From Bugula neritina (Eukaryota; Bryozoa; Gymnolaemata; Cheilostomatida; Bugulidae), in NCBI GenBank assembly GCA_964035545.1, contig OZ037773.1:7057251-7121250 (forward strand): a DNA stretch of 64,000 nucleotides. Direction: 5' to 3'. The position numbers and the translations under genes are program-made. Shown piece after piece: positions 34,033 through 64,000 of the stretch. The stretch's first letter is position 1; each line of letters begins with the position of its first letter. The notes under the pieces are model-generated. The model had not been told where the DNA came from. It did not search any database and saw only the letters and a list, made by a program, of their open reading frames with translations.

Positions 34033-36241
34033 ATGATTTCTGTAAGATCATTATCTATTACTCAGTTGTTTCATCAATCTCAGACTGTACGAGCCTTAGC
34101 AAATCGTTCTTTCACTAGCACAAGTTCACTCTATGTGAAGGTTAGCCATGCGTAGGCCTAAGATTGCCTTAGGTTGAGGCCTAAATTATAATTCTAATAT
34201 TAAAACGTAGTCCTTGGTTTGCATTCAATTTTTATCAGTGTGACTAATACTGGGCTTATAGTGATGCTGTTGCTAATATCGGTAGTTATCATTGTATAAA
34301 TTAAATCAAATGTAATTTTCTTTCAATTTCACTTTGACTTTGTGACACTCGGCCTCGCAGTCACACTGACACTCATTTACGTTATGATTGTGATTAACTT
34401 TAGGTTTGAATTTAATCATTGTGAATGTCATTCAGTTTTGCATTGTTATTGTGAGAACTCTGCTATCGATCTACCTTGTTATTTCTGGAAATATATACTT
34501 CAAGTTTATTACTTGGTCATAATGATGACGAGGATTAAGGTCATCATTATGATGTTCATGGGAAATTTGATGTTTACCTGCTCTAGTTTAGTATAACCAA
34601 GCCTAAGGGCTAAGTTTAAAGCTAACGAATTTTAATATAAGATGAAGATGTAAAACTTGCGTGAATTGTTTTATTTGTGCTAATTTTGTTCAATAATGAC
34701 AGTTTTTGAAGATCTAATTCGTCCTGCCAGTAGTACTAATTGTTGTAATCATGCTAATTAATGTTACACACATCACTTAGTTGATAAATCTATACAAGCT
34801 TTAAATTGACAAATGACAACATAACTTGCTTAATACAAAAAGTTATTTTGCTCAACTCAGTGATATCATTTGCTTGTATTGGATAACAAACCAGAGAAAA
34901 ACTCCATTTTGTGTTTGTACCTTAATTTAATGATGTGATCTAACAATAGTAAGTGTAATGCTTACTGTTTGAAATATAATATACAATTATGATGCATTTT
35001 TCCTACACATTTATCTAATTACCATTGGAAGGCGGCTATTGCTTATTATTTGCCTCACAAGTCTAGAAATGTGAAGTTTTCTATTCTTTTTGATAGGTTG
35101 GGGACAAGTTGCCATCAGTTGAAGTACACGAAGGGACTCCTGCCACCAAAGTAAATGTTGCAGATCTGTTCAAAGGAAAGAAGGGAGTTCTCTTTGCTGT
35201 CCCTGGCGCCTTCACTCCTGGTTGCTCAAAGGTAGCATAAAAATCTTGCACTTATGAAACTGAATATCCTTGAAAATTTGTTGAAAATTAAATGCAATGA
35301 TAATAATTAGATGAAATAGGGAGCAGCTGTGGTCTAGGGGTTAGAGTGTTTGGCTTAGTAAACACGAAGTCATGGGTTTGAACCTCAGTAAAGGCCATTG
35401 GTGATGTTAAGAAAAACTTCCAGTCATAATTGCTCCACATCCGAATAAGTCTTTAGCCCGCTTTAAAAAATTCTTTCCATCAGGGGTTCTCCCAGGGATA
35501 GTGACTATAAACTTGCGTGAGATAAAATATTAGTCTGAATTTCCTTGTAGACTCACTTGCCAGGGTACATTGAGAAGGCAGCAGAGCTGACCGCTGCCGG
35601 GGCACAGGTGATCGCCTGTGTGTCTGTGAATGATGCGTTTGTGATGTCAGCATGGGGGGAGTCCATGAAAGCAGAAGGCAAGGTTAGGATGTTGGCTGAC
35701 GCTGGCGCCGAGTTCACCAAGGTTAGTAAGATGTCCTGTGACTCCCTACATTGCGTGTACTAGTTTGTAGTTGTCTTCCATTATGACCAGATAATGTGCT
35801 CTAACATAATATGTGTCTATAAGACAAGGTTAGGTTTGAAGTTTTGCTCATTGCATTAGAACAGCTCACTCTACATATACTTGAAAAATATAACCTTTTT
35901 GGTAAGCCAAGCATTTACTAGTTCAAATAGTAAAATTTGCTATATTTATCATTGAGTGTGCAGCTTAGTTATTTGAGCAGCAATGTTGGCTGTAAACTCA
36001 TTTTAAGTAGCTGGTTAGCCTTTCACTGGTTGCTAGAACTGTGTTACAGTCTAGTTGTACTCATCTGTTGCAGGCTGTAGGACTTGACAAAGATTTGCCT
36101 CCTCTTGGCGGGGTCAGATCTCAAAGGTACTCCATGATTATTGAGGACGGAGTGGTGAAGGCCCTGAATGTGGAACCTGATGGAACTGGGCTCACCTGTA
36201 GCCTCGCTCCCAACCTGCAAGAGCAGCTGTCCAAGATGTAA
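34033..36241 (+). CDS. PRDX5: Peroxiredoxin-5, mitochondrial, atypical 2-Cys peroxidase
   Basis: Reduces hydrogen peroxide, alkyl hydroperoxides and peroxynitrite using thioredoxin. Exons: 34033-34140, 35097-35231, 35551-35721, 36074-36241; all introns are phase 0; product 193 residues (human 214). Exon 1 encodes a Ser/Arg-rich, acid-free N-terminus ([13 protein letters not shown]...) typical of a mitochondrial presequence. Exon 2 contains [11 protein letters not shown] with the peroxidatic cysteine. Exon 3 has HLPGYIEKA and VSVNDAFV. Exon 4 has [18 protein letters not shown], whose cysteine corresponds to the resolving cysteine of human PRDX5, so the intramolecular disulfide chemistry should be kept. 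The C-terminal peroxisomal tripeptide is absent (it ends SKM). Two AATAAA signals follow within 80 bases. A SINE sits in intron 2. Confidence 0.96.
35319..35522 (+). mobile_element. tRNA-derived SINE, near-intact copy, PRDX5 intron 2
   Basis: Head gagcagctgtggtctagggg, B-box region gggtttgaacctcag, core ccattggtgatgttaagaaa and tail gtgactataaacttgcgtga. The flanks gatgaaata and gataaaata suggest a short imperfect target duplication. It ends about 28 bases before exon 3. Confidence 0.9.
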
Positions 36242-43794: not shown

Positions 43795-44406
43795 CTAAGA
43801 TGTGATAGATGCTGTTTCCTGTTTAGTTCAATATTTTTCATGTCTGTACAAATAGTTGCAAGATATTACCCAAACTGTTGAAATATTAATCACTCAACCT
43901 CAAAAGAGTTAATAATATTTTGTTATGAGTTTCTTAAAAGCTCTTAAAGCTCTCACTAATGGTAAAACATACACCCAACAGGTGTTAGATTAAGTTTCAA
44001 GCATATTATGCTTTTAAACTCAGCTTCTTGACTATGATAAGATGCATAAACTCTCGAATAGTGTTTTGTCTAGGAGTGCACCAAGTCTAAACAAATGAAT
44101 CCTAAAATGAAGGAATTACCTGGTATAATCAGGTATAACTGCTGCTAAAAGGGTTTTAGATTCTTCTAGAAAAAATTAATATGTATGCATGTGCTTCAGT
44201 TACTAAAACAACATTTCAGTTGTCTCAGTAACTAAAATATACTAATTTTATGTAAATATAGTTGAATCTAGGCAACCGTTGGGTTGGGCAGTGATGTTAC
44301 ATAACTTTAAGTTATATCAACATCATATAAAAAGAAGTTAGAGTAGTTGTGTTAGACATTCTCTTGTAGCTACAGCATCTCATCAGCTTTACATAGTCCT
44401 CCAAAG
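43795..44406 (+). repeat. Upstream block duplicated between array genes 1 and 2 (copy 1)
   Basis: About 600 bases before gene 1 align, with modest divergence, to about 48820-49414 before gene 2. Shared words include caatatttttcatgtctg, agattaagtttcaagca and cagcatctcatcagctttac. The duplication that made genes 1 and 2 therefore carried the promoter. Confidence 0.85.
44326..44333 (+). promoter_or_regulatory. TATA box of array gene 1
   Basis: TATAAAAA lies 81 bases before the ATG. The copy before gene 2 has the same sequence and the same spacing. Confidence 0.75.
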
Positions 44407-47020
44407 ATGTGTAAGTATTTTATCTTTTATTTATTAAAATACAACTAAATTATATAAGAACCATGTACAATAGCTGATAATAGTTGTATACTGCTTTCAG
44501 TCACAGTTTAATATGAAAGTAAACTGTATAAGATTTGATTCAAAATAATGGAGTTTAAAAGTTGCATGTTTAACGTTTGTTTCAAAAAATTTCCCTATAT
44601 ATATATAAGTGAGACTTAAACCCAACTTACTTGTAAATAGTTAAAAATACTTACAAAATACATGAAAAATAATTTCTATAACTAACTATTGTTGTAATTT
44701 TATACCAAAACTTTTCTCTTATACCCTATTTTTTATGCTACCATCATTCATTAATTCATTACTATTATATCTGAATATGTGTCTATAGCATCTTCAAAGA
44801 AATTTTTAGTAGCAAAACTGAGTTTTAATTATTGAAATTGAATCTGTGTAAATTTTCTTTCTAGATAAAGTAACCCTCCTTTCAGTTGTTTGCTCTCTGC
44901 TATTTATTTATGGCGTGGAGTCTGCCAGCCTACACAGGTAAAATAATATAATTGTTCAATTGTAATAATTTCTTTAGAAACTGAAAAGTTTTAAGCTGGC
45001 TATCTATTGAATTTTCATCATTGCTAGTAATTATAACTACCTATGCAAATATATAAGTTCAAAGTAAATCTCGTTTCTACTTAGATAACACAATTTCTGT
45101 AAAGCTGCATATACTGCTGTTTAATCACAAACATCTAAGTTCATAATATTTGAAATACATGTAGTGTTCGTGAGAAGAGATCTATGGCAGCTTTCTGTAT
45201 CCCACAACTTCTAAGCAACCTGGAAAGATCTCACGCCCTGTTGGAACAACTGAACAACTATTATATCGTGAGTTCATATTTATTCTGTAAATAACTACTC
45301 TAATGTTTTGTAAACATAATGAAATACTTGAAAGAAAATATATCTCTTGACCTATTTTGTAGATGTTTAGCTTTTTTTATTTTGACACCATGCCCTACAA
45401 ATATTATGATATGACATTAAATATAAATTTGCTAACATAGTAAAGTATTATGTAATGATAAATACTATATTATAATAATGTAATGCAAACAAAATAACAT
45501 GATATGATTCTATACACACTATACTATCTGCTGTACTCATGTTCTAGGAACAATACTTCTGCGCCGGACAATGGGAAACTGCAAACATGAAAACAAGAGA
45601 TCTGAGCTGTGCGCATTTTGCTGTAAGTATAAGTATAAACTTACCTTGTAAAATGTATCACAGACTGGAATACATAACAGTACAATATTAAATAATATAA
45701 CTATTTTGTATTGGAACCTCTTTGGTTGAGCAAATTAAAGTCTACAGTTTGAGTCAGGTGTGATAAAAGCTTTGGTACACTTTGCATTGCTCACAGCCTG
45801 TAAAATAATTTTGCCCCCCCCCCCCTGAGATTCAAACCACACACCTCTGGCTTGCAAGCATGCGTGCTAACCAATTTCACTACAGGGGCTTTTGGATTTT
45901 TAACTGCATCATACTCAGTTTTTTCCAGAACTGCACTAGCCCCACGTAGTCATGTACTCTTGTCAGTTTATGGGCTCCACCCGCCACTCAACTCTCTGAG
46001 TGTACGACCATGACACAAAGCTGAAATAGCTTATGAAAAAAAATTTGCTTCTACTGGGATTCGAACATGAGACCTCCTGCTTGCAAGGGAGTGTGCTACC
46101 TACTACACCACAGCACTACTGGGTAAACTCAACATAACAATCGGTAATATAAACTGCATGGTTTTTCTTTGCTTTTAGAACATGACCTTAAACGAGGACC
46201 ACTCATCACCATTGGCTCAACACTTCTGCATGCTCAAGGCAACATTTCCTGAAAACTATGGCCCGCTGAGTCAAGTGTCAATGCTTATGCAGGGGGTATT
46301 AGTAGCAATGAATCAGACAGTACCTGAAGGACAGTGTAACCTTGAAAATGCTGTAAGTTGAAACCTCAACTCTTTCATTGCTAGTTTAAATTTTAATACA
46401 ATCATAAACGAAAGGTATACTTACTTGTGAATTGTAACTGGTTTTAATTTTACAGGGATATTGCTTTGATTTTTTTTATGCAAAGTGATATAAAGTCAGC
46501 TATTCGTAAAACCTTAAATATTTTTGATATGCATTAATACATCATTAGAGATTTTCTTACATCAGAAATCTTAATTTAAATTAAAAGTTGTTCCAAGGCT
46601 TGAACTCAGTTGCAAATATTACATAATGGCTTTACCTTGACATTTAGCTGTTGATTCCCAGTTTTGAATCATTTTAATTTAGAAAGAACTAATGCTATGC
46701 CTCGATACACAACAAATACCACGTTTTAGAGTTATTTTCTCTCATTTTCCATGCAGACTTGAGCATTCAACGTCATGGCTATGGGTTGTAAAATACTGTT
46801 TCTTGCATTTAAACAGGGTAAGAAACTGCAAGAAGATGGTTACGAGAAGGTGTACCGTGAACATCTCGCTAGCTTATTGGAAGATGTACTCTGTGTGCTA
46901 GACAGATGCGGTGAAATTACTCCAGAACATTTCCATTCAGAGGGAGACGATCACCATGATAATGATCACACTCACGAATCTATCACTGTGTTTGACAAAT
47001 GCTCTTCAGCCTCACAATAA
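44407..47020 (+). CDS. Array gene 1: secreted 8-cysteine protein with His/Asp-rich tail
   Basis: Exons: 44407-44410, 44865-44937, 45165-45267, 45548-45622, 46179-46352, 46817-47020; 210 residues; intron phases 1,2,0,0,0. Exon 1 codes only ATG plus T. Residues 1-22 (MYKVTLLSVVCSLLFIYGVE...) form a signal peptide. REKR at 28-31 is a furin-type site, followed by SMAAFC. The mature part has cysteines at 37, 65, 81, 102, 138, 169, 174 and 205. Exon 3, the second half of exon 5 and the start of exon 6 (GYEKVYREHLASLLEDVLC) look like amphipathic helices. The tail at about 181-196 is rich in His and Asp (DDHHDNDHTHE) and could bind metal ions; a last cysteine follows it. Potential N-glycosylation sites are NMT at 86 and NQT at 130. 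I do not recognise the family. Its neighbours downstream are clear paralogues. Confidence 0.88.
45820..45889 (-). repeat. tRNA-like sequence (old SINE head or tRNA pseudogene)
   Basis: On the minus strand, GCCCCTGTAG... folds back on ...CAGGGG. It has A-box-like GTGAAATTGGTTAGCACG and B-box-like GGTTTGAATCTC. A C run is adjacent on the plus strand. It lies in intron 4 of array gene 1 and is too degenerate to be a functional tRNA gene. Confidence 0.6.
46046..46120 (-). repeat. Second tRNA-like sequence in the same intron
   Basis: On the minus strand: GTGGTGTAGTAGGTAGCAC (A-box-like), CTTGCAAGC loop and GTTCGAATCCC (B box). It resembles an Ala-type tRNA head. The sequence around it is unlike the main SINE family of the window, so it is probably another SINE family. 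Confidence 0.6.
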
Positions 47021-47189
47021 CTTTACATCACAAATATTGTTTGACTGTAGCTCAATAGAAATCTAGTTACCATGATTATTTGTAACCAGCCATTATTAAC
47101 ATAATTAAATGTAGATTTTTATTTCTTACTTGCTTACTTACTTTCTGAACTGATGTGTAGCCTCAGCATCCAATGTTTTGTAGCATTCA

Positions 47190-47195
47190 AATAAA
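47190..47195 (+). terminator. Poly(A) signal of array gene 1
   Basis: AATAAA in the context ttcaaataaattt, 170 bases after the stop; gene 2 has the same context. Confidence 0.75.
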
Positions 47196-48819
47196 TTTCT
47201 GTTATCCAAAACAGCTACTGGTGTTGCTTTGAAGAAATTTTAGCATGGAGGCTTTAGTTTCCAATGAAAGACTCAAAAGCTTTTTAATAGTTGCCTTGAA
47301 ACGAGCAGTAATATAATAAGAAATGAAATATAATGAAACATGATAGTTTGCTGCTAAAGATCGCAAGTCATTAAAAAATACAACCTCTCACGTATATTCT
47401 CTCTCTTTTATACAAGAGTTGAAAATGACAAAATAGTTATTATGCACTTATTATTTAGCAATTGAACTTGCCTTAGTTTAAAATAAACTTGTAATATAGA
47501 AGGATTCATCTGTGATCCTCATACACAGCAAACACAGTAGCCTCTTCTCATGGGTGGTGGAGCTTTACTAAACATAACTTCCTACATAGTGTAGCGTTTA
47601 AGTTTAGTGTTTACTATGTGAGTCTTTCAAACTCAGAGTAAGAATAATATATTACACCAGCTTATATGTTCATGTTTATATAACATATTACATAATATTA
47701 TAATTATTATTAATTGTTTAATTCTTTATTTTATACCTCATTTATTAATACTATTTTTTAAGACGTTTTGAAAGCTAAATTTATAGCTAATAGCAACCTA
47801 ATAGTTAGCATTGAGCATATAAAATATGAAAGGAGCAAAAGTAAAAGCTGATGCCTACAATAATTGAACAAAATAGTGTTACAGAAACTAGTATTCAGTT
47901 TTAATTTGTTTTGTGTTTGGTTAATTATCACGTTCACCTAAAAGGGGGGGGGGGGAAGGTAACAACTTCTTGTGATCTATTGTTTATTTATACATTATAC
48001 TAGTTATACATTGTTGTTACATTTGCATATATTTTGGTTTTGAGCTGTTTCAGCTATTGGAATATATTAATTTTTCAAGACATTTTTTATATTTCTATGT
48101 TTTGAAATTGTATTTTAGTATCATGATTGATAGGTCTACCAGGAACATTAATAAATAAAATATTAATATATAATTCCACCAGATAACACTCATTTGACTT
48201 TTCCAACTACCAGGGTGTATGTGATGTATTCTATGACTCAATAATGGCCACCAAAACTACTAGTCAGAAGTTTATTTAAACATATAAATTCAAATGGTTT
48301 GTGACTTATAAATGTAAGTTGATTAACTTGAATGTAAATTGGTTCACCTAAGTGTAGATCGTAGTTCATAGTTCATACAGATCTAAAATGACTCATATAA
48401 ACATCTACCGCCAGCTTCTATTCAGATGGAGAATTGCAATAATTTAGTTTCTTTGATTACTTTTATGAATTTTGTGAAGGCCAGGGTTGCTGTTTAAAAT
48501 GTTTATATGAACCTCGCTTCTTTTTCTATAAGTTTTATTTAAACTACGCTAGGCTGTTCCCGATTTCTTAATAGCTACAGCAGGTTATAGCATGTCACTA
48601 GCTAGGTTATAACATGTCACTAGCCAGGTTATAGCATGTGACTAGCTAGGTTATAGCATGTCACTAGCTAGGTTATAGTGCATTGGACCTCATCATTATC
48701 CCCTTTTCGTTTATGATGTTTTTCTAAATGTTGTAAAACAAACCAACAAACAAGCCTTAATATAATGTTCATTATGACCAGCAACAAAATATTGAAACAT
48801 ATGCCAGATGGGTACACAA
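47196..48819. other. Intergenic between array genes 1 and 2
   Basis: AT-rich. Holds a run of 12 G at 47944-47955 and a short minisatellite at 48588-48678. No exon of the family and no other gene is seen. Confidence 0.55.
48588..48678. repeat. Minisatellite, about 21-22-bp unit
   Basis: Four copies of ggttatagcatgtcactagc, upstream of array gene 2. Confidence 0.85.
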
Positions 48820-49414
48820 CAATAGTCATGTTGTTGTGTTTTGTTATTTGTTCAATATTTTTCATGTCTGGGACAAATAATTGCAAGAGACTACTCAAAA
48901 TAACTAATAATATTATGTCAGAAGTTTCTGAGAAGATGGTAAAGCTCTTACTAATGGTAGAACATATGTAAACTCAACAGATTTTAGATTAAGTTTCAAG
49001 CAGAGGTTTTTAAACTCAGCTCCTTACTTATGGTAAGCTGCATCAACCCCTGAATAGCTCATTGTTTAGGAGTGCACCAAGTCTATGAACAATCGGATCC
49101 TAAAATGAAAGAATTACTTGGTATAATAATGTAAAACTGTTGCTAAAGTGGTTTAGATTCTTTTAGAGAAAAATAATTTTGAGTATTATTATGCATGTAT
49201 TTTAGTTACTAAAACAACATTCCCTGTTGCCTTAGTAACTAAAGTATACTGATCTTAAGTAAATATAGTGAAATCTAAGTACTCATTAGGGTTGGGCAAT
49301 ACTATTACATAACTTAAATCTATGCCAACGTCATATAAAAAGTAGTTAGAGTAGTTGTGATAGACACTCTCTTATAACTACAGCATCTCATCAGCTTTAC
49401 ATAGTACTCCAAAG
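48820..49414 (+). repeat. Upstream block duplicated between array genes 1 and 2 (copy 2)
   Basis: Aligns with 43795-44406; includes the TATA box and leader of gene 2. Confidence 0.85.
49334..49341 (+). promoter_or_regulatory. TATA box of array gene 2
   Basis: TATAAAAA 81 bases before the ATG, the same distance as in gene 1. Confidence 0.75.
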
Positions 49415-52400
49415 ATGTGTAAGTATTTTATCTTTTATTTGTTGAAATATAACTAAATTATATAGGAACCATGTACAGCAGCTGATAATAGTTGTATGCT
49501 GTTTTCAGTTACTGTTTAATATGGAAGTAAACTGAGTTTTTTGACCGCATAGAGTTGGATTTTAAATAAAGGAGTTTAAAAGTTAAAGTTTAAAAGTTAA
49601 AGTTTCAAAAGATTTCCCCAGGGGGATTCAAACTTAACTTATTTGTAAATAAATAGTTTAAAATACAGTATAAGTAAATCATAATTATAATAATAATAAC
49701 TTATTACTATTGCTGCAATTTTATACCAAAATTCTTCTCTTATACCTTATTCTTATTATTTGTGTAATTTTTTTCTAGACAAAGTAACCCTTCTATCAGT
49801 TGTTTGCTCTCTGCTATTCATTTATGATGCGGAATCTGCCAGCCTACACAGGTAAAATAATATAATTATTCAATAAATTTGTAATCATTTCTTAGAAACT
49901 GAAATAGTTTAAGCTGGCTATTGGATTTTCCCCATATTGCTAGTAACTATAACTTTACAAATATATGAGTTCAAAGCAAATCGTGTTTCTACTTATATGG
50001 AATAATACATGGAATGTTTAATCACGAACATCTAAGCTCATAATATTTCAAATACATGCAGTGTTCGTGAGAAGAGATCTATGGCAGCTTTCTGTATCCC
50101 ACAACTTCTAAGCAACCTCGAAAGATCTCATTCCCTGTTGGAACAACTGAACGTCTATTATATCGTGAGTTCATATCCATATTCTATAAATAACTAGGCT
50201 CTACTATTTTGTATGTAATTTATTCAATGCAATGTATACAAATGCTCTACTATTCTGCATAAAAACTCTGCAAGTTTGCAGTCAACTTTCCGTAAGAAAT
50301 TCCTGATGAAAAAGGTTGTTTTTTTTTCATCCCAGTTAGACGCTAGGCTAAATTTCCCATTTGGATGCTTCCCATTTTTTATTTTGGTGCCATATGATTA
50401 CATAGTAATATTTACCTATATATACCTATAAGTATATAGCTGTTGCATTGATTGCTAAATAGCTAAAGTGCTAATAGCTATAATAGCTAACATGAATTAT
50501 CTGGAATAATATTCTAATTTTCATAGACTTGTGTGGGGTAAAAAAACAGTAATATATTAATAATAAACAGTATCTTTAATGAATGAAGACGTTCATTAAT
50601 GAAATATCTGTTCAAACAAGAAGCAAAAAATATGTAAAATTATTATGTTAATGAAGATCAAAAAAATGTATTTACTTGCTCAATACGGGCTTTATTTAAA
50701 TATACATATGTTTAAATAATAATCAAATAAATTGTACATAAAATATATATCGTACCAATATAAATAAATAGCGTCTATCTGGGATGACACCTCTTTTTGT
50801 TTAAGTGGGCTAAGGACTTATGTGTATGCGGCACAGGAGCAATTATGACTGGATGCTTTTCTTAAAATTCCCGAATGGCCTTTGCTGGGGCTTGAACCCA
50901 TGACTACAGATGTACTGAGTCAGCCCTCTAACCCCTAGACACGGCTGCTCCCCCATAGCTATTCTTTATACAACTATTTAAATGTCGTGTAAATATAATG
51001 AAGTGCTTGGAAGAAAATATATCTGACACATTTTGTAGAGGTTTAGCTTTTTTTTATCTCTATACCATTTCATATAAATATTATAAATTTACGTGTAAAT
51101 GTAATTTTGCTAACATAGTCAAATATTATGTAATAATAAATATTGTAATATTATAATGTAATGCAAAAAAGTAAGTTGATACAATTTTATACACACTATG
51201 CTATCTGCTTTGCCCATATTCCAGCAACAATACTTCTGCATAGGACCATGGGAAGCAGCAAACATGAAAACAAGAGATCTGAGATGTGAGCATTTCGCTG
51301 TAAGTATAAAATATATAAACTTACCTTGTATACCATATTATGAGCTGGATGAAAGTATAAATATAAACTTACCTTGTATAACCTTGTATTATGAGCTGGA
51401 GAGCATAAATTACACTAAATAACTTAATTATTTTGTATTGACACACCTTTGGTTGAGCAAATTGAAGTGTGACTTTCTAGCTTTACCTCTGCTGAAAATT
51501 ACCCATTTACAGTATTACTAAAACTTTGAAATTATATTGATGCGGAAGCTCACTTTTTACAATGTAATGCAAATTAAATTTCTGACTAAAAATCATAAAG
51601 GTAAAAACGCAACGTAATACTTTCTCCGCATTCCAGGTTGAGCAACCAATGACAGTAATTCAAATATCTTATGACTTGTTGTTTTTAGAACATGACCCCA
51701 AACCAAGACCATACAGAGCCTGTGGCTGAACACCTTTGCATGCTTCAGTCAGCATTTCCTACACACTATGGTATAATGACTGAAGTGACCTTGCTTATGG
51801 AGGGGGTATTAGCAGCAATGAATCAGACTTTACCTGCAGAGAAATGTGACCTTGAAAATGCTGTGAGTTGAAATATTGACCATTTCATTGCAAGCTTATA
51901 TTTTTGATTTGTTGGAATACTTTTTATATACAGTAACAACGTACCTATTCTTCATATACAGTACAATACATCTGGTTATTTTTATATACAGTAATATAAT
52001 CTATAATAACTTTTTATATACAGTAGTATATCATTAGAGACAGTATTATATGTTATGGTTTTGAAGTCTATAATGAGGAGAAAACATTATACACTCAGGT
52101 TGTTTATATTTCCAGAAGAAAGTTATGTGTCATGAAACTGACTTACAGACCAACCCGAATTTATATTTATTGAGTTCAAAAATTGTATATAAGATCTAAA
52201 CTGAAATTGTTTCAAGCTTTGAATGCAATTGCAAATAGAACTTGATGGCTTTACCTCAAAATTTGACTGTTGATTACTAGTTTTACACTGTGTTGGTTTG
52301 AACAAATTAAAATATACTACACCTATCTATAAGTATGAGTTGCATTTGCATTTTAAATGAATCTAGTATGCTAATGGTATGTGCGTTGAAAGAACTGATG

Positions 52401-52775
52401 CTTTGATACATTACAAATGCTGAGTTGTAATGTAAGGTTTAGAGTTATTTTCTCTCAACACTCCATGTAAACTTTACCATTCAACATCATGGTTATGGCT
52501 TGTTGCAGACGTTATAAAGTATATTTTCTTCCATTTCATTTCCACAGGGTAGGAAGAAATTGCAAGAAGATGGTTACGAGAAGGTGTATCGTGAGCATCT
52601 CGTTAGATTATTGGAAGATGTACTCTGTGTGCTAGACAGGTGCAGTGAAATTGCTCCAGAACATTCTCATTCCGAAGATCATCATGAAGATGATGATCAT
52701 CATGATCACCATGATAATGAGCACACTCATGAAGTTATCACCGTGTTTCAAGAATGCTCTCCAGTTCCAAGATAG
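49415..52775 (+). CDS. Array gene 2: secreted 8-cysteine protein with long His/Asp-rich tail
   Basis: Exons: 49415-49418, 49779-49851, 50062-50164, 51225-51299, 51689-51862, 52548-52775; 218 residues; phases 1,2,0,0,0. It is the closest paralogue of gene 1: signal peptide, REKR cleavage site and first helix are almost identical, and the cysteines are at 37, 65, 81, 102, 138, 170, 175 and 213. Exon 5 differs from gene 1 at 25 of 58 residues, while exon 3 differs at two of 34. The tail is longer than in gene 1, with HHEDDDHHDHHDNEHTHE, an apparent expansion of a CAT/GAT-rich stretch; metal binding is possible. AATAAA lies at 52954-52959. A SINE sits in intron 3. Function unknown. Confidence 0.88.
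50785..50955 (-). mobile_element. tRNA-derived SINE, reverse copy, intron 3 of array gene 2
   Basis: On the minus strand: ggggagcagccgtgtctagg, a B-box region ggttcaagccccagc, then caaaggccattcgggaattt and agcatccagtcataattgct. The 3' tail is missing or diverged. A poorer match at about 50276-50370 (gcaagtttgcagtcaactt, cctgatgaaaaagg) may be the remains of an older copy. Confidence 0.85.
51905..52035. repeat. Short tandem repeat, intron 5 of array gene 2
   Basis: Four to five imperfect copies of tactttttatatacagtaa, beginning about 45 bases after the donor of exon 5. Confidence 0.7.
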
Positions 52776-52959
52776 CTTTACATCCCAAATATTGTTTGCA
52801 TGTGACTCAGTATAAATCTAATTACTACAATTGCTGACAACCTACTCAGCCAGTATTAACATAGTCAGATGTGTCTTTTTTGATTACCAGAGTTATGATA
52901 CTCACTTTCTGGACTGATGTGTAACCTCATTATTCAATGTTTTGTAGCGTTCAAATAAA

Positions 52960-53559
52960 TTTATGTTATCAAACACAGCTACTGCTTTGGTTCTAAGATA
53001 TTTTGAGTAGGTATAAATAGTTTAGTGTCCAATGAAAAGCTTCAAAGCTTTTTAATAAAAAAGAAAAAATAAAAAAAGAATATAATGATATAACATAATA
53101 TAATGAAAAATGATAAGTTGCTGCAAAGATATCTAAAGCAGTTGAAAATCAAATTTTTTAAATGTTTTTTATCTTATAAAAGATTGATCAAAATGAGAAA
53201 ACAGTTATTGTGCATATGTTGAGTATTTAAAAATTTCCTAGTTTGCTAAACTTGTAACAAAGCTCCCATCTTTGATGAAAAATTCTCATACAATCACGCC
53301 CTGCAGGTGGCAGTATTTTACTAATTGCAGCTGAATAAATCCTAAATAATTGGCATTTAAGTTCAGTGTTTATTTCTCAAAAGTAAATATTATGTAATAA
53401 TATTATTATTTACTAGAGCTGGGAAGCACTTACACTGCTTCTAATAACTTTTAATCTAAGGATTAGAATGAGTTTAGATTCTCAGTACATCTAGACCAAA
53501 GGCACTGCTGAAAAGGAACAAGCAATCTGTTTACTTTGAACCTGCTTTAGAACCTGCTG
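52960..53559. other. Intergenic between array genes 2 and 3
   Basis: AT-rich flank and promoter region of gene 3; no further gene is seen. Confidence 0.5.
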
Positions 53560-53567
53560 TATATAAG
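53560..53567 (+). promoter_or_regulatory. TATA box of array gene 3
   Basis: TATATAAG, 83 bases before the ATG. Confidence 0.65.
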
Positions 53568-53642
53568 TAGTGAGCACAGCTCAGCCTACACCTTATAGTG
53601 CTTCTGATTTCACTGTCTCACAAAGGATTTCACTGACTAGTA

Positions 53643-55565
53643 ATGGGTAAGAATATCTTGTGAGTCTTTCAAATTCAAAAAAAGAATAATGTATGGCAGC
53701 TGTTAGTATTTTTTCATTTTTATATAGCATACATAATTTTATTATCATTATTCAACTTTTTATTCTTGTTCAATTAGTTTTTTAAAGGAAAAACTAGCAA
53801 ACTTTGTTTTACATAAATTCAGCATACAACTTTTAGTAGCAGAAAGCTGGAGTCTAAAACAGTAAAGCTATATTTATATGCTCAGCATTTAAGTTTCTTG
53901 GCTTCATCCAAGACTTAATAATAATAATGTAGAAAAGAGTTATTTATCATGATATAGTTATATGTTGTTGTAGATAGAATGAGTCTCTTCTCAATGCTCT
54001 GTTTTCTGGTAGCTATTCACACCACTCACTCTGCAAGTCTCATCAAGTATGGACCATAATATCACTAGTTACTTGTGTATTAGTTTTTTTTATTTATGAG
54101 TATAAGATGGGAAATACTGCATATAATAGCCATATAAAGGTGACTCAAGTATAATGGTAGAAACAAAAATAGTTACATGAACACATCACTAGCAAGAAAT
54201 ATTACAATGTAAGACATGGTTGCCTTGGGTAGAACACATTTGTATTACTGTTGATACTAATGTATACCATGGTGTAACACATGTGTAGTACTGTGTAACA
54301 CATGCGTAGCACTGTGTAATACATATGTAGTACTGTATAATATATGTGTAGTACTGTATAATACAAGTAAGGGAGCAGCCGTGGTCTAGGGGTTAGAGCG
54401 TTCGCTTTGGGAACACGAAGTTGTGGGTTCAAACCCCGACAAAGGCCATTGGTGATGTTAGGAAGAGCATCCAGTCATAATTGCTTCTGTGCCTCATTTG
54501 AACGAGTCCTTAGCCCGTTCTAACAAAAACCCTTTCTATCAGGGGTTTCTCACAGGGATAGCGACTATAAACTTACGTGAGTTTTCTTTTGTATAATACA
54601 TGTGTAGTACTGTATAACACATGTGTAGTACTGTGTAGTACTGTGTAATACACATGTGTAGTACTGTATAATACATGTTTAGTACTGTATAACACATGTG
54701 TAGTACTGTATAACACATTCGTAGTACTGTGTAACACATGTGTTGTACTGGTTTGCAGGAAGAGGTCTCTACCAGCTCCATGTTCAGCCACCTTAAGATC
54801 CACACTTGACGCCCCTCTTGTACTGTTGGAGACTCTGAATCAGGATTACATTGTATGTATTTTTTGGCTCAGAATCTTTTCAGTTTCTAACTTTAAAAGC
54901 AAAAATAGAAAAAAAATTTATTTGAAATTATTTGAAAGAAAGATAGAGGTAAGGTAATAACTGTTTTACTGAGGCTATAATTACCAGGAGTTGCATAACC
55001 TATCATATGAAGCCCATGGGAAAACTAATGCACAATTATTACAAGGGTGTTACTTATTTCTGAAATTTCTATCCCATCAGATAATTACAGATCAAACAAA
55101 ACCCTTGTCTTGATGTAAAGTATAATTACTGAAAATTGTTTAACTAATGCACTTTTCTACAAAACAGTTTTGTTTTAAGTTTATCCAATTCTGGGGCTAT
55201 GTATACATGGAGTTGTCTCCTTTTTTATTTACTGTGATTACTATTATTGCTAGTGCTACTAGTTCATACTGGAAACTTCAGATAGAGGAAACCAGTATTT
55301 GTTGTATGTACAAGTAGTCCAGGATGTCTAAAAAATACTGATTGTCTTTTCATGCAAGAATTACAAACTACTTTTGTAAAAGTTCTGCTTTTTTAAAGCA
55401 TTTGTCTGCCTCAAACATAAAAGAATTTGGTGCTTAAAAATTTTAACTATTATTTTAAACAATATTTTAGGAAGAGCATTTCTGCACAGAAGTGAATCAA
55501 CATCCAGTCCAAGTAGTTCGGAATATTACCTGCGGCTACTTCAATGTAAGTAAAGTTACCTGCAG

Positions 55566-55662
<97 letters not shown>

Positions 55663-56614
55663 CACACGCACACACGCACACACGCACACACGCACACACG
55701 CACACACGCACACGCACACACGCACACGCACACGCACACACACGCACACACACACATGCACACACACACATGCACGCGGGCATATAATTACTGTATGGCT
55801 AGTGCCTTTATCAAACTGTAAATTACATCCTGCTTTAAGTCAGTGAAATAATAATTTTTATTTACTTTTAGTATATAGCAGCCCGGGGAGATTTGGCACG
55901 CAAACTGGATGAACACAGATGCATGCTGCAAGAAAGTTTCCCCTCTAATGATGTCCACAAGTTTGGCAGAATGGCAGCGTTCAGTGAACTTATTGATGCT
56001 ATCATCTCAGCCATAGATGAAAACGAAACAGGGGGCTGTGACAACTCTGCCCTTTACGTAAGTATTCTATATATGTAGACAGGGATACCATGGGAAGTGC
56101 TGGGGTAGTTTATTATCAACAGGAATACTGGGGTAATTTATTATATGCAGGGGTTTTTGTGTAGTTTCTTATATACAAGGATACTGGGGTAGTTTATTAC
56201 ACACAGGGATGTTAGGAGAGTTTATTATAGGGGGGGGGGGGTGGGGGGTGGGGGGGGTTATTGGGGTAGTTTATTATATACATGGGTTTAGGTCTAGTTT
56301 ATTATATACAATGATACAGGGGTAGTTTATTATAAACAGCTTTTTTCATAGATATTTACATTAATTAAAATCATTGATTTAACTCTGTTGAAGAATTATG
56401 CATAACTCAACAGAGTTACATCATGATTTATCTAACGATTTAGGTGAACAGAGTGAATGAAAGTGGTTACAACAATGTCTATCACAGCCATCTTGTACAC
56501 CTGTATGATGAGATATTGTGCACTAAGACTTCTTGTGAAAGAGAAGGTGGTCAGCCTGATGAAGAGCCCTTACTCTCTAAACTCCCTGTGTATATAAGAT
56601 GTCAAAGTAACTAA
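53643..56614 (+). CDS. Array gene 3: secreted 8-cysteine protein, short tail
   Basis: Exons: 53643-53646, 53974-54046, 54759-54852, 55471-55545, 55872-56057, 56444-56614; 200 residues; phases 1,2,0,0,0 as in genes 1 and 2. Exon 1 is ATG plus G; a second in-frame ATG at residue 4 (exon 2) could also start translation. The signal peptide ends near HSA at 20-22. IKKR at 25-28 is a basic cleavage site before SLPAPC. Cysteines are at 34, 62, 78, 99, 138, 170, 175 and 197, so the 16- and 5-residue spacings of the family are kept. N-glycosylation sequon NIT at 75 directly precedes a cysteine. [19 protein letters not shown] repeats the exon 6 motif of the family. The tail lacks the His run. Primary sequence identity to genes 1 and 2 is low; homology rests on architecture and cysteines. 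Confidence 0.86.
54240..54747. repeat. Minisatellite of GTAGTACTGTRTAAYACATGT type split by a SINE
   Basis: About five copies at 54240-54366 and about eight at 54592-54747. The unit is about 20-21 bp (gtagtactgtataacacatg). It ends about ten bases before the acceptor of exon 3 of array gene 3. Confidence 0.9.
54371..54581 (+). mobile_element. tRNA-derived SINE, near-intact copy inserted in the minisatellite
   Basis: Full head (gggagcagccgtggtctagg), B box (gggttcaaaccccgac), core (ccattggtgatgttaggaag) and tail (gcgactataaacttacgtga). It is flanked on both sides by the tandem-repeat unit, so insertion came after the array formed or the array grew around it. Confidence 0.92.
55566..55775. repeat. 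CA / CACG microsatellite, intron 4 of array gene 3
   Basis: (CA)n passing into (CACG)n and CACACG mixtures, starting about 20 bases after the donor of exon 4. Open frames on both strands here are artefacts. Confidence 0.95.
56085..56340. repeat. Minisatellite with G-runs, intron 5 of array gene 3
   Basis: Seven to eight imperfect copies of ggggtagtttattatataca, starting about 27 bases after the donor of exon 5. One copy has grown into G12-T-G6-T-G8 at about 56230-56257, able in principle to form a G-quadruplex. Confidence 0.85.
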
Positions 56615-58906
56615 ACTATGCCCCAGAGGAAAGACAACTCTACTTAGTGACTGCTTGTTGTTATTTAACAAATTTATCAATTTATTTTTGATCTAATTTT
56701 ATACTTCAACTTTGCAATGTTGAATAGCTGCTATTTCTATTAAAGTAAAAATAGTTTGTTTATATTTCTAGTTTATGTTTATGGTATTAATCTAGCTACA
56801 AATGCACTAGAGTCTAGACTATAATAAAAATTAAAAGAATTGCATCTGCATGTATATATATCTCAATTTATTACAGTCATGACAGAGAAAAGTTTAATTA
56901 TATCGAAACTTAGTGACTAGGTCAATACCTTATATTATCTTGAACATGCTGATTTAGAGCAAGTTGTCTATTTGTTTATATTCAAAACTTGAACAGCGGT
57001 CTCAATAAACTCAATTTCTTGATATTTCTCTGAATAGCATTCGAAGTACTCCAGATTAAAAGTTCCAGTTTAAAATTTTGACAGTCTGAAGATGTAAAGC
57101 TGTTTTAGTTAGAAGAATATAAGTTATGTTAACACGGGACATTTGATCTGCACCCCAAATCAAAAATTTATAATAATATTAAAATAATCTAGGCTACACA
57201 AAAAAGTTTAACTTGTGTCCTAAATTAGAATGCGTTGAAATTAAAAAATTAGCTACTGAAACTTCCCAGTTTTGGCACTTGAACGAAATGTCTAGTAGAC
57301 AGTCTTGTGCAGTTAGCTAAAAGTAGTGTTGAAATAATGTTACATAACCACCTAAACTAGTGCCTTGTTTAATACCATCACAGCCAGATTAAAGTATATT
57401 TAACTGCACTGTGCACTTAGAAAATGAAACTTTAAAGAACAGAGTATGAAAAACCAAATTCTAACATTTACCAGCACATGCTTTGCACAGCACTAGATGA
57501 AGTATGGCTTATAAGTTTCATTAATTATTTTCAGACTATTTGCTAACATCAGTTGTGTATTAGCATTGATCAAGTATTTTGAAAAGTAGACATAACTTTC
57601 ATAAATAAAATCTCCTTTTGATAATTTATCGTTAATCAAGAGCTAGGAGGAAAATAACATTTCTGACCAAGGATCCTTTGGGTAATATTCTATTTGGTTC
57701 ATCCATTTGACAAGAGTTGAAAGAATCTCATCTCCATGCTGATGGCTAAAACTTTAAATCCCAAAATGCAATTTTTTTGCAAAATTAAATTAACAAATCT
57801 TAGCCTGAATGAAACTTTATTTTATAGACCAAGATGTTGACAAGTAATTCATTAGAAATGTACTATTCTCATTGTATCCATTCTAGTCATTAAAAGTAAT
57901 TTATGTATCATAAGAAATGCTTGTAATTTGGATATATAGAATTTAGGCAGTCAAAAAAGAAATTTAGCTTGATTTAGTCACTTAGAAAGTATTTTCCTTT
58001 ACATTTAATTTGATAGTCTCAATAAAAAACAGTTTATTGCAAATATTTTTCTGCACCATTTGAGGCATGAACCATCCCTTATAATGACTAAAACAACATC
58101 GTTATAGCTAAAAACTACACATTTTAAATGTGGCTACATTTACTTTGTGCTCAATCTTTTCCCACCAACATAATATTAAATATCTTGTTTACTTTAACCA
58201 GCTAGGTATTTCTATACCAGTTTACAATAAATATAAGCCGAGTGCATTTTTGCTCTCATTCTTTAGATTAATTATGAATTCAACTGTTTCTGAAATTTTC
58301 TTAGCAAACCAGCTTTATATTCTCACTTTGATTATCTTCTTAAGTTTGTAGGTGCAGTAATAGAAAAATTTAGAAAAGCCAGTACACTTTGTTGGAAATG
58401 TAGCAAAAGAAGTTATGCTCTTTTGAAAATTTCAACTCCCAAACCAAAATTTATTAAAAAAGTTTAAAAGTTGTAGGCTATTAAAATTTCTTTACTGTTG
58501 CACTTGAAGTTCGCTAGTTTCAGTTTTGCTAGTTTTTTATCTCTTGACTATGGAAGCCGTTAGCCAAACCAAACAAAAATGAAGTAGTAAACAAGTTTCC
58601 AAATGCACCTATTAAAAAGTTTTGTCTGCGGCTGTTGCTATTATCTAGGTACTAGGACATGTTCTCTCAGCTCAGCGGTTTAGTGCAGGTTACTTAAGAG
58701 ATAGATATCTATTACCTTTAACTTCTGTTGTAAATATCCCAATGTCTTTTGTAATTGAAAGGTACAAAGACATCATTATCTAGCAACGCCATGGAATAAA
58801 TGCAGTCATTTGGTCTAATTTATAGACATATGGCGGTGTTTGCATACTGATTTAAACACCTTTATTACCATGGATGATAGGTAACTCATTTCTACCAGTT
58901 TTCAGG
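56615..58906. other. Intergenic between array genes 3 and 4
   Basis: 2.3 kb, AT-rich. I looked for relics of the family motifs (the GY..VY helix, the paired cysteines) and saw none. No other gene is supported. Confidence 0.5.
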
Positions 58907-58914
58907 TATAAAAG
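58907..58914 (+). promoter_or_regulatory. TATA box of array gene 4
   Basis: TATAAAAG, 95 bases before the ATG. Confidence 0.7.
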
Positions 58915-59001
58915 CTGCTTATAAATACTGGAGTTCAGTTATTTACAGCTAGCTGTTGGGTCTTTTAGCTTCCTGGTCATATGCTGAATTGGAAACTAGC
59001 A

Positions 59002-61373
59002 ATGAGTGAGTATATTTGCTGATAGTAGTAATGGCAAGTAGATTCTATAGAATGCCATAGGATTATTTGATACATTTTTGAAAAGTAATTAAATTTAGTT
59101 TGAAAAGTAAAAAAAAGTTATGTTTGTAAATGTACAAAAGCTGAACTAAATAAAAAAACTAGTATAATAAAAAAAAATGTTACTGAAAACTTGGCTAAAA
59201 TACTAAATCAACATAATTTTAGGTCAGCAGTATTTAGCTAATTTTAATAAACAAATTTTTTGCTACTTTGGAAACAATATTGTGTTTCTCTGCATTATTT
59301 GCTGGCTCTAGTTACACAAATGTTTACTTTTTTTGAGATCAGATTTATGCAAAATATTTTATAAATAACTTTTGTCCACAACTTTTATTAGTAAAGCTAA
59401 AGCTTGCATCAATAGAATAGTGAATGAAAAAAGGGGTTGTATATTATTTTTAATCATTTCTTTCTGGTTAAAATTTGTAGATAAAGTAACTTTTTTCTCC
59501 GTTTTCTGCACCTGCACCGTGTTGTTCATCTATGCAGTTGAATCTGCCAGTATTCACAGGTTTGTAAATATTCTCATACAATCATAACATTAAATTTAAT
59601 TGTGTAGAATTAAATGTTTATTTTACTTCTTTGTTCTTTGAACCGAGTTAAAGTTGCTTACAGCGTACCTTCTATTTTAGCATTCATTAGATTGGTTTAG
59701 CTTAACAAGAAATTAATTCTATTGGTTACAGGAATATTTTCCGTGTAGCTCGAAAGGAAAGGTCATTAAGTGCATTTTGTGCTGCGGAGCTGACAACGAA
59801 GCTGAATAATTCGTTGGGTTTATTAAAGACTCTGAATGACTTCTACATTGTAAGTTCTTACAAGAATGTCTAAACTGCAAAGATATGGATTGTCTTTAAT
59901 CTTATATTATAAGTTTCTATAATATATTTTGAATTTGTGGTATGTAGGGGCCTGAGCAATGAAACGATTATTTGAATAAGCTTAGAAATGTAGTGATAGT
60001 ATGTTATAAATTTTGTTTGATTAAAGTAAAAAGAGATTGCATCTAACTTTCTCGGGTGTCTTGGAAGTTTGTCCAGAGAGATCATTTTTGTAATAAAGTT
60101 GAATAGAAAGGAAATGTTAATAACTGGAATTTGGTTTCAGGATCAACACCTTTGTCCTGGAGCTGGCAAACAACCAACTTATGCCAGTGCCTACTTAACC
60201 TGCAGCTACTTTGAAGTGAGTGATGTACTATCAAAGTTTGGCCAGAATTTATAGTCTTCATGTTTTGATCTTTAAGCAAATGGGAGCTAAGATATTCCAT
60301 GTTGCAATTCATATTGCTTATAACTTGCCTATATCTCATTTGAACTATTAAAAAAGAAGGGAGATACTAAAAAAGAAATTGTTTGTGACGTTTCAATGTA
60401 GTTTTATTTTTTGTTAGCATTTGATCACTGAACGCAAGCTTGCTAATGAATTACATGAAAATCTTTGCTTGCTGGAAATTGCAATGTCGAAAGACCACCC
60501 AGAACTAGCTCAGCTTAATGAGAATGTCCGTTATGTCATCGGAATGATCACATCTGACGAAGCTCTTGCTGTTTGTGACACAACTCATTTCGTGAGTTAA
60601 TAGTTAATGTATATATTAGTTTAAGATTTCATTAAAAACACAGCATTGAAATATTTTAATTTTACTAAAATGATGAAAGCTGTAAAATCTATTTTTAAAA
60701 CTAAATTTGCTAGGTCGATGGTAATAACCAAAACTCTCTACACACACAAGTTTTCAACATACTAGTTGAGTAAATATGTAAAATCCTAATAAATTTCAAA
60801 CCATAGATTCATTTATTGGGAATATTTGTGATCTTGTTTAGGTTTTAGTTGTTTTTTTAAATTATCTGCTATTAAAACAAAACACAAGTTTTTATTCAAT
60901 TCTTGTTGGCCATTATTATACAGATGAATCGGACTGAGACGATTGGTTACCATAACGTGTACTACAACTCTCTAGTTCCTTTATACGACCACAGCATATG
61001 TGCATTAGCCACCTGCAACCTGCAGGAGAGTATATCTTCAGAAGACCAAGAATCTTCTGCAGAACCAGAATCTAGTGCGGAAGACCAAGGATCTTCTGCA
61101 GAGCCAGAATCTAGCGCAGAACCAGAGTCAAGTGGAGAATCTGAGGTTAATGCGGAGCCAGAGTCCAGTGCAGAACCAGAATCTAGTGCAGAACCAGAGT
61201 CAAGTGGAGAATCAGAGCTTAGCGCAGAACCTGAGTCTAGCGCAGAACCAGAGTCTAGCGCAGAACTCAAGTCTAAAGCGAAGCGAGAGCTTAGTGCAGA
61301 ACCAGGGTCCAGTGCATCATACTTGTATTCTGATTTGCCTGTTTTTATAGAATGTATAGATGCCAACATGTAA
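59002..61373 (+). CDS. Array gene 4: secreted 8-cysteine protein with Ser/Glu-repeat tail
   Basis: Exons: 59002-59005, 59481-59559, 59732-59849, 60141-60215, 60418-60591, 60924-61373; 299 residues; phases 1,2,0,0,0. The signal peptide MNKVTFFSVFC...VESA closely resembles that of gene 1. RKER at 35-38 precedes SLSAFC. Cysteines are at 44, 72, 88, 109, 145, 176, 181 and 294, with family spacings 16, 36 and 5. GYHNVYYNSLVPLYDHSIC is the exon 6 motif. About residues 190-275 form a tail of imperfect six-residue repeats (AEPESS, with GESE and AEDQ variants) followed by KAKR and a final cysteine. The tail is strongly acidic, Ser/Glu-rich and probably disordered; it could be phosphorylated or bind calcium, but that is inference. 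Function unknown. Confidence 0.87.
61030..61310. repeat. Coding 18-bp tandem repeat in array gene 4
   Basis: About thirteen imperfect copies of gcagaaccagagtctagt, in frame, encoding the AEPESS tail. The length is always a multiple of three, so expansion has been tolerated at the protein level. Confidence 0.9.
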
Positions 61374-62200
61374 TGGTTGTAGTCTTATCCTTCAAACAGT
61401 GTTGAAGCAGAGAATACCTGCATGAGTTTATACTACACTCCTGCTCTTATAAAGTAAAACCAAATATACTCACAAAATTAAGCTAAAATATAAGTCTTTT
61501 CTTTTCTGTCAAATATATACCTCAGAAACAAAAAAGTGAAATAGATCAAACCGTGACAATCCTAAATAATCTTCTAATTCAACTAATGTCTGATTGTAGT
61601 AATCATCAACTTTTTCTTATATAAAGAACTAACTTGATGCTAAATATAATTTATTAACATAATTTATATTGCAGTTCATCAATCATTGAAAACTTTTAAG
61701 CAGAAGTTTTTAATAATTTTGTTTAGAAACATAATATAAGTTTAGAAGCTTTAGATTTTCAATCAAATTTAGACATTGCAAAAACTAAAAAAGTTCATGT
61801 TTACTAATTTTGAAGGAAAACAAAAATGTTGTGTTTTCAAGAACAAGGCTTACTTAAGCACCAAGTAAACTTAATTCAGCGATAGGAAATAAACTGAACT
61901 TACACATATGGCAGTACAAACGTTTTGCACTCAACTTACTTATAATAGAACAAGTGAACAAAACATGAAACTTTCTAAGCATTCTATTTTTAGGTACAAG
62001 ACACAATTAAATTTGAGCCCACCTGGTGTTCTTATAGATCTTATTCTATAATAATGAATAGTTTTTAGTGAAATTATAGTCGCAAATAAACAACCCTAAT
62101 AATTATATAGGTAGGTGTAAACTCATACCCAATAATTTGTCATAGACTTAAACAGAAGGTTATTATTATCATTATCTCCGTCAAATAACACATTGAAAGT
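61374..62200. other. Intergenic between array genes 4 and 5
   Basis: AT-rich flank; nothing else recognised. Confidence 0.5.
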
Positions 62201-62208
62201 TTATAACA
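62201..62208 (+). promoter_or_regulatory. Possible TATA element of array gene 5
   Basis: TTATAACA, about 90 bases before the ATG; weaker than in the other four genes, and called mainly from position. Confidence 0.35.
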
Positions 62209-62290
62209 AACCAACAGTCTCTATTCTACCTCAGAGAGTATCAGATTCCTTAACCTTCACCATACTGTTCACATCTTTCTACTAAAAATC

Positions 62291-63750
62291 ATGCGTAAGT
62301 TGAAACTCTTAGAGTATTTTATTGAACTATATTGAAAACATTATAATATTTTAGCAAAAGTATTGATAGAATTATTACAATTTAATAAGCAAAGAACTGT
62401 TAAAGTATAGAGAAGAATATTTTTGTCTGAGTTGGGCATTTAATTTTTGTCATAAAATTTATTTTAGAAAACTTCTCATGTTATAGAATTAGGCTAGCTT
62501 TATATACAAGTCTTTGTAGCATACAATCTCAGAAGAAGTAATCTGTAGTTAGTAACTGAAAGTGTGTGGTATTATCATGAAAGCTATAATATAGTTCACT
62601 AAATTTTATTAAAACCATCCCAAGATGGTTCTATGTGATTTAAAAGTACTTTGTAAAATTTAAAGCTAATTCTATAAGATATTTATAGCCTAGCAGATGC
62701 TCTCTTATGGCTATAATAGAGCTCTTATAATGATTACAGATAAGCTATTGACCTTACCAATTCATCTATGCCTAGTGCTGTTGTACATCCACCGTGTGGA
62801 GTCTAGATCTACTCATCTTCCAAGGTATGTTTACTTTACCATACTTATTAGCTTTCTACTAGTTATTAGCTATTCTAGAATGTGCCAAGTTATGCAATAC
62901 GGCTTCATATATTTATGTTACAGTTACAGTGTGTATCAATGCAGTTCTTAGCTTTATATAGAAAGTTTCTTTAGGTGAATAATTTATAGCTGAGAGCATA
63001 TTCTATGTGGTAGTTAGTATGTCTCAACAAGGTTTGCAGCTTGAAGTTTTCATATGTAATCTTATTGATAAAATAACCCTCTGCTTGTAAGACATCCCTC
63101 AGTCATTCTTCTACATTTTCCTTCTCTAATTTATTTCCATTGATAGTAGCATACTAAAACATAGACTGTCTTCTATAGTTACTATGGTTACCAAACATCG
63201 TATAACCCTAACATAAGGTCACTAGATACTAAATAAACTGTGCTTTAAAGCAGCTCAAAGCATTACTAGTCATGCTAGAAGCGCTGAAGCTGTCAGCTGC
63301 CAAAATTATGATATTTTGATGCTAATTTTAGTGTTCCTCAACAAAGGAAGTATCTGCCATTTTCTTGTCCAACTGATTTAACAGTATCCATCAACAAATC
63401 TCTAACCTTAATGAAGCAACTTAATCAAAACTACGTGGTAAGTATTTTTCTTTATTTTGAAGGGCGGAAAACTCCATTATGTTACAATGACAACTTTTTT
63501 ATTTCTACATAAACATTTTATGATTAACCATTACTTCAACTATTATATTAAAAGAAAATCTAATATTATTTTATCAAGTTTAAAAAAATATTGTCATTAA
63601 AGTTTACATGAGGAAAGTGCGATAGCCTTAATAGAATGTTCGGCATTCTTTTTTTAGTTATTATCCATGTTTTAGGCTCAGCACCTTTGTTTCGAAGCAC
63701 TCCAGAATCCAGTTGAAGTTATAAAGAATGTTACCTGCGGTCATTTTGAT
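62291..63750 (+). CDS. Array gene 5: secreted paralogue, first four exons, 3' part beyond the window
   Basis: Exons: 62291-62294, 62740-62824, 63332-63437, 63676-63750; the next acceptor CAG ends exactly at base 64000, so exon 5 begins just outside. The visible 90 residues keep phases 1,2,0. Exon 1 is ATG plus C. The signal peptide MHKLLTLPIHLCLVLLYI is followed by VESRSTH. QQRK at 33-36 is a dibasic site before YLPFSC. Cysteines at 42, 70 and 86 keep the 16-residue spacing, and exon 4 again has 25 codons. NVTCGHF in exon 4 is very like NITCGYF of gene 3, so genes 3 and 5 look closest. Incomplete, not broken, as far as can be seen. Confidence 0.82.
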
Positions 63751-63824
63751 GTACGTTGTCACATCAGACTAATAATATATCTCAGTCACTCATCCTTTTC
63801 TTAAACTAGTAACTACATACATAC

Positions 63825-63900
63825 ATTATGTTGGCAGCATATTTACCTGCAAATAATATATTTACCTGCAAGCAATACATTTACCTGCATATAGGATGTT
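63825..63900. repeat. Short tandem repeat, intron 4 of array gene 5
   Basis: Three to four imperfect copies of atttacctgcaaataatata, about 75 bases after the donor of exon 4. Confidence 0.65.
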
Positions 63901-64000
63901 TACCAATCAGTAACACATTCATCTCAAAGTTTACATATCTGTGTGTAACAGACTTAATTTCAAGTAAATTAGGAATATTGTGCGTTCTTTTGGTTTTCAG

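Follow-up and report, generated by a model that had tools for sequence, protein, structure and literature searches.

Six related genes lie in tandem on the plus strand at this locus of Bugula neritina: g1 to g4 are whole in the 64,000-nucleotide stretch of DNA analysed (the window), g5 is cut by its end and g6 lies outside it (Table 1). The gene models were built from splice sites and open frame on the window and the 39 kb downstream of it. Recounted lengths and phases give six coding exons with intron phases 1,2,0,0,0 in all six genes, and together with a four-base exon 1, a 75-base exon 4 and eight core cysteines these features, present in every copy, define membership of the family. From g1 to g6, exon 2 measures 73, 73, 73, 79, 85 and 73 bases and exon 5 measures 174, 174, 186, 174, 171 and 168 bases; exon 6 ranges from 138 to 450 bases, and exons 2 and 3 sum to 164-197 bases. 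Exon 1 of g6 is the sole ATGNGT[AG]AG candidate within the 1.5 kb scanned. The TATA-like box of g1 begins 81 bases 5' of the ATG, and such boxes recur at -81 (g2), -83 (g3), -95 and -82 (g4) and -58 (g6), thus in five of six genes, none being found within 150 bases upstream of g5. A first-pass annotation made from the window had described a plus-strand array of five genes with these exons and phases; the layout is borne out, the count is not. The further exons it expected past the window are exons 5 and 6 of g5 and the whole of g6, the array ending about 6 kb beyond. Its four-base exon 1, 73-85-base exon 2 and 75-base exon 4 hold on recount in all six genes, while its exon 5 of 174 or 186 bases is right for the four complete genes and wrong for g5 and g6.

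Table 1. Features of the array and its surroundings. Extended positions are window coordinates continued beyond 64000.
Feature	Position	Strand	Details
RasGEF_N exon	16177-16509		Upstream of the array; Pfam E 1.3e-17
tRNA-like SINE	17972-18104
tRNA-like SINE	35318-35434
TATA-like box of g1	44326..44332	+	Upstream of g1
Gene 1 (g1)	44407..47020	+	210 aa; exons 44407-44410, 44865-44937, 45165-45267, 45548-45622, 46179-46352, 46817-47020
Intron 4 of g1	45800-46130		Two stretches resembling other tRNA-derived repeats, by eye
Gene 2 (g2)	49415..52775	+	218 aa; exons 49415-49418, 49779-49851, 50062-50164, 51225-51299, 51689-51862, 52548-52775
tRNA-like SINE	50826-50952	-	g2 intron 3
Gene 3 (g3)	53643..56614	+	200 aa; exons 53643-53646, 53974-54046, 54759-54852, 55471-55545, 55872-56057, 56444-56614
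tRNA-like SINE	54370-54505		g3 intron 2
Gene 4 (g4)	59002..61373	+	299 aa; exons 59002-59005, 59481-59559, 59732-59849, 60141-60215, 60418-60591, 60924-61373
Gene 5 (g5), window part	62291..64000	+	208 aa; exons 62291-62294, 62740-62824, 63332-63437, 63676-63750
g5 exons 5 and 6	Extended 64001-64171, 64762-64947	+	g5 ends at 64947
Gene 6 (g6)	Extended 66147-69942	+	182 aa; wholly beyond the window
Tandem repeat	Extended 84940-88400		About 21-24 kb past the window; period about 152 bases; frames repeat RCFLKCL...LILS

The N-terminus is hydrophobic in all six proteins, the stretch stopping near SAS in g1-g4, and judged by eye it is probably a signal peptide. A basic site stands directly before the first mature cysteine in g1 (REKR), g2 (REKR), g3 (KKR) and g4 (RKER); no comparably clear basic site was seen in g5 and g6. 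Eight cysteines are common to all six proteins, g6 having a ninth, and in the mature part of g1-g4 they are separated by 27, 15, 20, 35 or 38, 30 or 31, and 4 residues, so that the spacings of 16, 36 or 39, and 5 reported at first, which are differences, match the gaps of 15, 35 or 38, and 4 counted here. The gap between Cys7 and Cys8 varies from 13 residues in g6 to 112 in g4, and the last cysteine closes the motif LPV[FY][IV]xC in g3-g5, with looser variants in g1, g2 and g6. The exon 6 signature proposed earlier, GY-x2-VY-x3-L-x2-L-x4-[IL]-C-x4-C, is present in g1-g4 and fails in g5 (SYEYVY...LKC) and g6 (PCLTTY...IAC). Each protein carries two to four N-glycosylation sequons. Pairwise identity of the mature cores is 20-34% for all pairs but g1/g2 (75-76%), in agreement with the low identity noted earlier outside that pair. 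The filler between Cys7 and Cys8 is His/Asp-rich in g1 (46928-46978) and g2 (52662-52733), where it is built in exon 6 from CAT/GAT-type repeats, and it is a Ser/Glu-rich repeat in g4. The g4 stretch has 96 residues and 13 S-x-E motifs, S-x-E being a kinase motif; at least 13 were found in 63 of 5000 shuffles, and a separate 2000 shuffles gave a mean of 8.0 and a maximum of 15.

The resemblance among the six genes is not due to chance, since each gene, when scored with a profile built from the other five, reaches 74 to 192 bits, far above plain shuffles (at most 11.4 bits) and cysteine-fixed shuffles (at most 24.8 bits; 1000 of each kind per gene, 891 to 998 of them reported). Between g1 and g2, the closest pair, dN is 0.129 and dS 0.328; the ratio is 0.39 overall, ranging by exon from 0.09 (exons 1-2) to 0.55 (exon 5), which points to purifying selection and supports the genes as coding. 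Coding is further supported by metagenome ORFs orthologous to exons of g1, g2, g5 and g6, described below, and by a public Bugula neritina "hypothetical protein", EB796_019007 (P0001), which shares 90.6% identity with g1 across residues 1-85, encoded by exons 1-4. This protein begins MYKVT and tracks g1 through exon 4, which is consistent with the four-base exon 1. Its final 23 residues correspond to a different reading frame of g1 exon 5 (19/23 identical), so the public model appears to be wrong from exon 5 on and would lack the authentic exons 5 and 6, which carry five of the eight cysteines. The accessible part of PMC7576161 describes the Bugula neritina draft as annotated with AUGUSTUS, using the published transcriptome as hints; EB796_019007 thus lends indirect transcript support to g1 only. 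A literature search for this identifier did not find it.

Profiles of exons 2-6 run against the six frames of 103 kb recovered the six copies, each at E 1.2e-7 or better, and no seventh, with nothing else below E 0.06. Genome-wide searches (215.8 Mb) with g1, g3 and g5 matched only inside the array apart from one hit on contig C2 at E 2.5; very divergent relatives may escape such a search because it reads exon by exon.

The surroundings of the genes are marked by a high-copy tRNA-like SINE, judged by eye to be tRNA-derived, with 2346 candidates at a first look through the genome. It was probably active recently, since the 40 copies scored are 94-100% identical, and its minus-strand insertion contributes to how long g2 intron 3 is. 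Intron 4 of g1 holds stretches resembling other repeats of tRNA origin, and a tandem repeat lies well downstream of the array. The RasGEF_N exon on the upstream side is probably part of an SOS-like gene, the SOS label being given by eye.

Searches of 5.8 billion proteins gave seven matches, namely EB796_019007 and six unnamed JGI metagenome ORFs (P0002-P0007) found with C-terminal halves as query (E 1.5e-16 to 2e-9). The ORFs are single-exon fragments of 62-94 residues, and by BLAST they match best g2 exon 6 (P0002), g1 exon 6 (P0003, P0004), g5 exon 5 (P0005, P0006) and g6 exon 5 (P0007), with 68-85% identity to the best-matching gene. In stretches of four of the six ORFs, counted with the His/Asp-rich tails left out, 3 of 42 residues differ for P0003/g1, 3 of 43 for P0002/g2, 7 of 57 for P0005/g5 and 9 of 52 for P0007/g6, none of them at cysteines. 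P0002-P0004 keep the His/Asp-rich kind of stretch seen in g1 and g2, though not its length, and P0004 has an extra THESITVFDN copy. These fragments are best read as exons of the same genes from one or more close relatives; at least g1, g2, g5 and g6, including the g1/g2 pair, would be older than the separation of two Bugula-type lineages. So far the family has been seen only in Bugula-type bryozoans, Bugula being the sole bryozoan genome searched.

The six genes appear to form a new family, unrecognised in what was searched, as the first-pass annotation had proposed. Compared with Pfam at E up to 10, five of the six proteins (g2 left out and g4 taken without its repeat) reached no curated cut-off; a profile of all six had no credible match among PDB chain sequences, and the protein matches are all unnamed. 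In the accessible text of the literature on the Bugula genome and transcriptome, bryozoan secreted proteins and invertebrate helical cytokines, the family is named nowhere among the matches listed; Bugula neuropeptides are the subject of PMC4990251, as far as its accessible part goes. As a kind, lineage-restricted families of secreted, cysteine-rich proteins encoded in tandem are familiar; it is the family itself that is new.

Structure prediction suggests a mature protein with a helical core. AF2 on g3 alone gave pLDDT 33.5 and pTM 0.22; with seven related proteins it gave an all-helical model with pLDDT 43.3 and pTM 0.35, and helices at residues 32-62, 71-84, 87-104, 110-130, 138-151 and 154-173. 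Confidence was best in the exon 5 part, with block pLDDT of 55-67 over residues 91-140, while all other blocks stayed under 50; at an overall pLDDT of only 43 the helical fold is tentative. Fold searches from this low-confidence model gave no credible match, and helical periodicity, computed from the six-member mean hydrophobicity in hand-picked segments A-D, was not significant (p 0.06 to 0.28).

We hypothesize, tentatively and with less than even confidence, that this is a new family of secreted, disulfide-tied and probably helical proteins, most likely acting as soluble extracellular ligands. The product would be made with a signal peptide for secretion, a furin-type protease may trim the g1-g4 products at the basic site, and the mature part could then fold into a disulfide-linked core that is compact and largely helical. 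In the putative exon-to-fold plan, exon 3 would supply a long helix, exon 4 a crossover, exon 5 two helices and exon 6 the last helix, with the C-terminal end anchored via Cys8; once released, the product may act on receptors of other cells, between cells or zooids. A ligand role is favoured because the scaffold positions stay constant, whereas elsewhere divergence has left 20-34% identity in all copies except g1/g2. A cytokine-type receiving pathway is likely to be present in Bugula, since its genome holds a STAT (STAT5A match, E 1.2e-8) and a JAK-type FERM_F2 exon, which against PDB reaches JAK2 only at E 0.7. A receptor search with PF09240 gave no match, but the controls likewise gave none.

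The inserts between Cys7 and Cys8 of g1, g2 and g4 would equally suit a matrix or mineral role, and the proteins could be matrix proteins, acidic or metal-binding, that are secreted into the cuticle or the calcified wall. The Ser/Glu-rich stretch of g4 with its S-x-E motifs speaks for this, as does the conserved kind of the His/Asp-rich stretches in P0002-P0004. We nevertheless consider it unlikely, as g3, g5 and g6 share the cysteine core without any such stretch, and the stretches themselves sit in repeat-prone codons and may be the result of slippage.

Brood-chamber or reproductive secretions, for example of placenta-like brooding tissue or gamete proteins, are a further possibility of small probability. 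Secreted tandem families are common in reproductive tissue, which we counted in its favour together with the divergence of exon 5 from the metagenome relatives of g5 and g6; positive selection, however, was not seen between g1 and g2, even the highest exon ratio staying at 0.55.

It is similarly improbable that the proteins are true long-chain class I helical cytokines of the GH, IL-6 and EPO kind, and thus the ligands still missing for the JAK-STAT receptors of lophotrochozoans. The argument for this comes from the gene plan, in which a tiny phase-1 first exon and later phase-0 introns accompany exons of 75, 168-186 and 138-450 bases that would correspond to a loop, two middle helices and a last helix. 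Vertebrate coding exons measure 10/161/120/165/198 bases in GH, 19/191/114/147/168 in IL-6 and 13/146/87/180/156 in EPO, with phases 1,0,0,0, and these plans look alike if Bugula exons 2 and 3 are counted as one. The genomic STAT and JAK-type exons fit this reading as well, and so does the situation in molluscs, where, according to the accessible part of PMC13203501, IL6R, JAK and STAT co-exist and yet no IL6-like ligand was found. Against it, comparison of the family profile with human EPO, the only member tried, gave an hhalign probability of 0.3% (P 0.18) and an hmmsearch score of -1.2 bits, which was equalled or beaten by 560 of 1588 plain and 300 of 1396 cysteine-fixed shuffles reported (2000 made of each kind). 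No cytokine family was among the Pfam matches of the five members tried, at E up to 10. The phases, moreover, are 1,2,0,0,0 in Bugula against 1,0,0,0 in the cytokines. This reading is carried by gene architecture, with sequence comparison giving it no support, and because of the missing Pfam match, the missing EPO similarity and the extra phase-2 intron we do not file the family as cytokines.

Immune or defensive effectors, a role that could be suggested by small, cysteine-rich secreted products of tandem paralogs that vary outside the scaffold, are very unlikely, as the proteins, with 182-299 residues before processing, are longer than typical antimicrobial peptides and g1/g2 are under purifying selection.

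These results provide a complete unnamed gene family, with exact gene models, in a poorly studied phylum, and if its members are ligands, as we prefer to read them, they could offer a handle on signalling among bryozoan cells, zooids or brooding tissue. Should they turn out to be helical cytokines, they would be relevant to how JAK-STAT receptors are activated in lophotrochozoans. The strongest form of that idea, that the six genes encode bryozoan four-helix cytokine or hormone ligands whose intron pattern goes back to an ancestral gene shared with vertebrate GH, IL-6 and EPO, is quite improbable; were it true, these would be the first four-helix ligands known in Spiralia and the origin of that family would be pushed back to early bilaterians. 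Compared with long-chain class I cytokines, the Bugula genes differ in their extra phase-2 intron, their eight cysteines and the lack of detectable sequence similarity, whereas they resemble them in the tiny phase-1 exon 1, the later phase-0 introns, the similar exon sizes and a probably helical secreted product.
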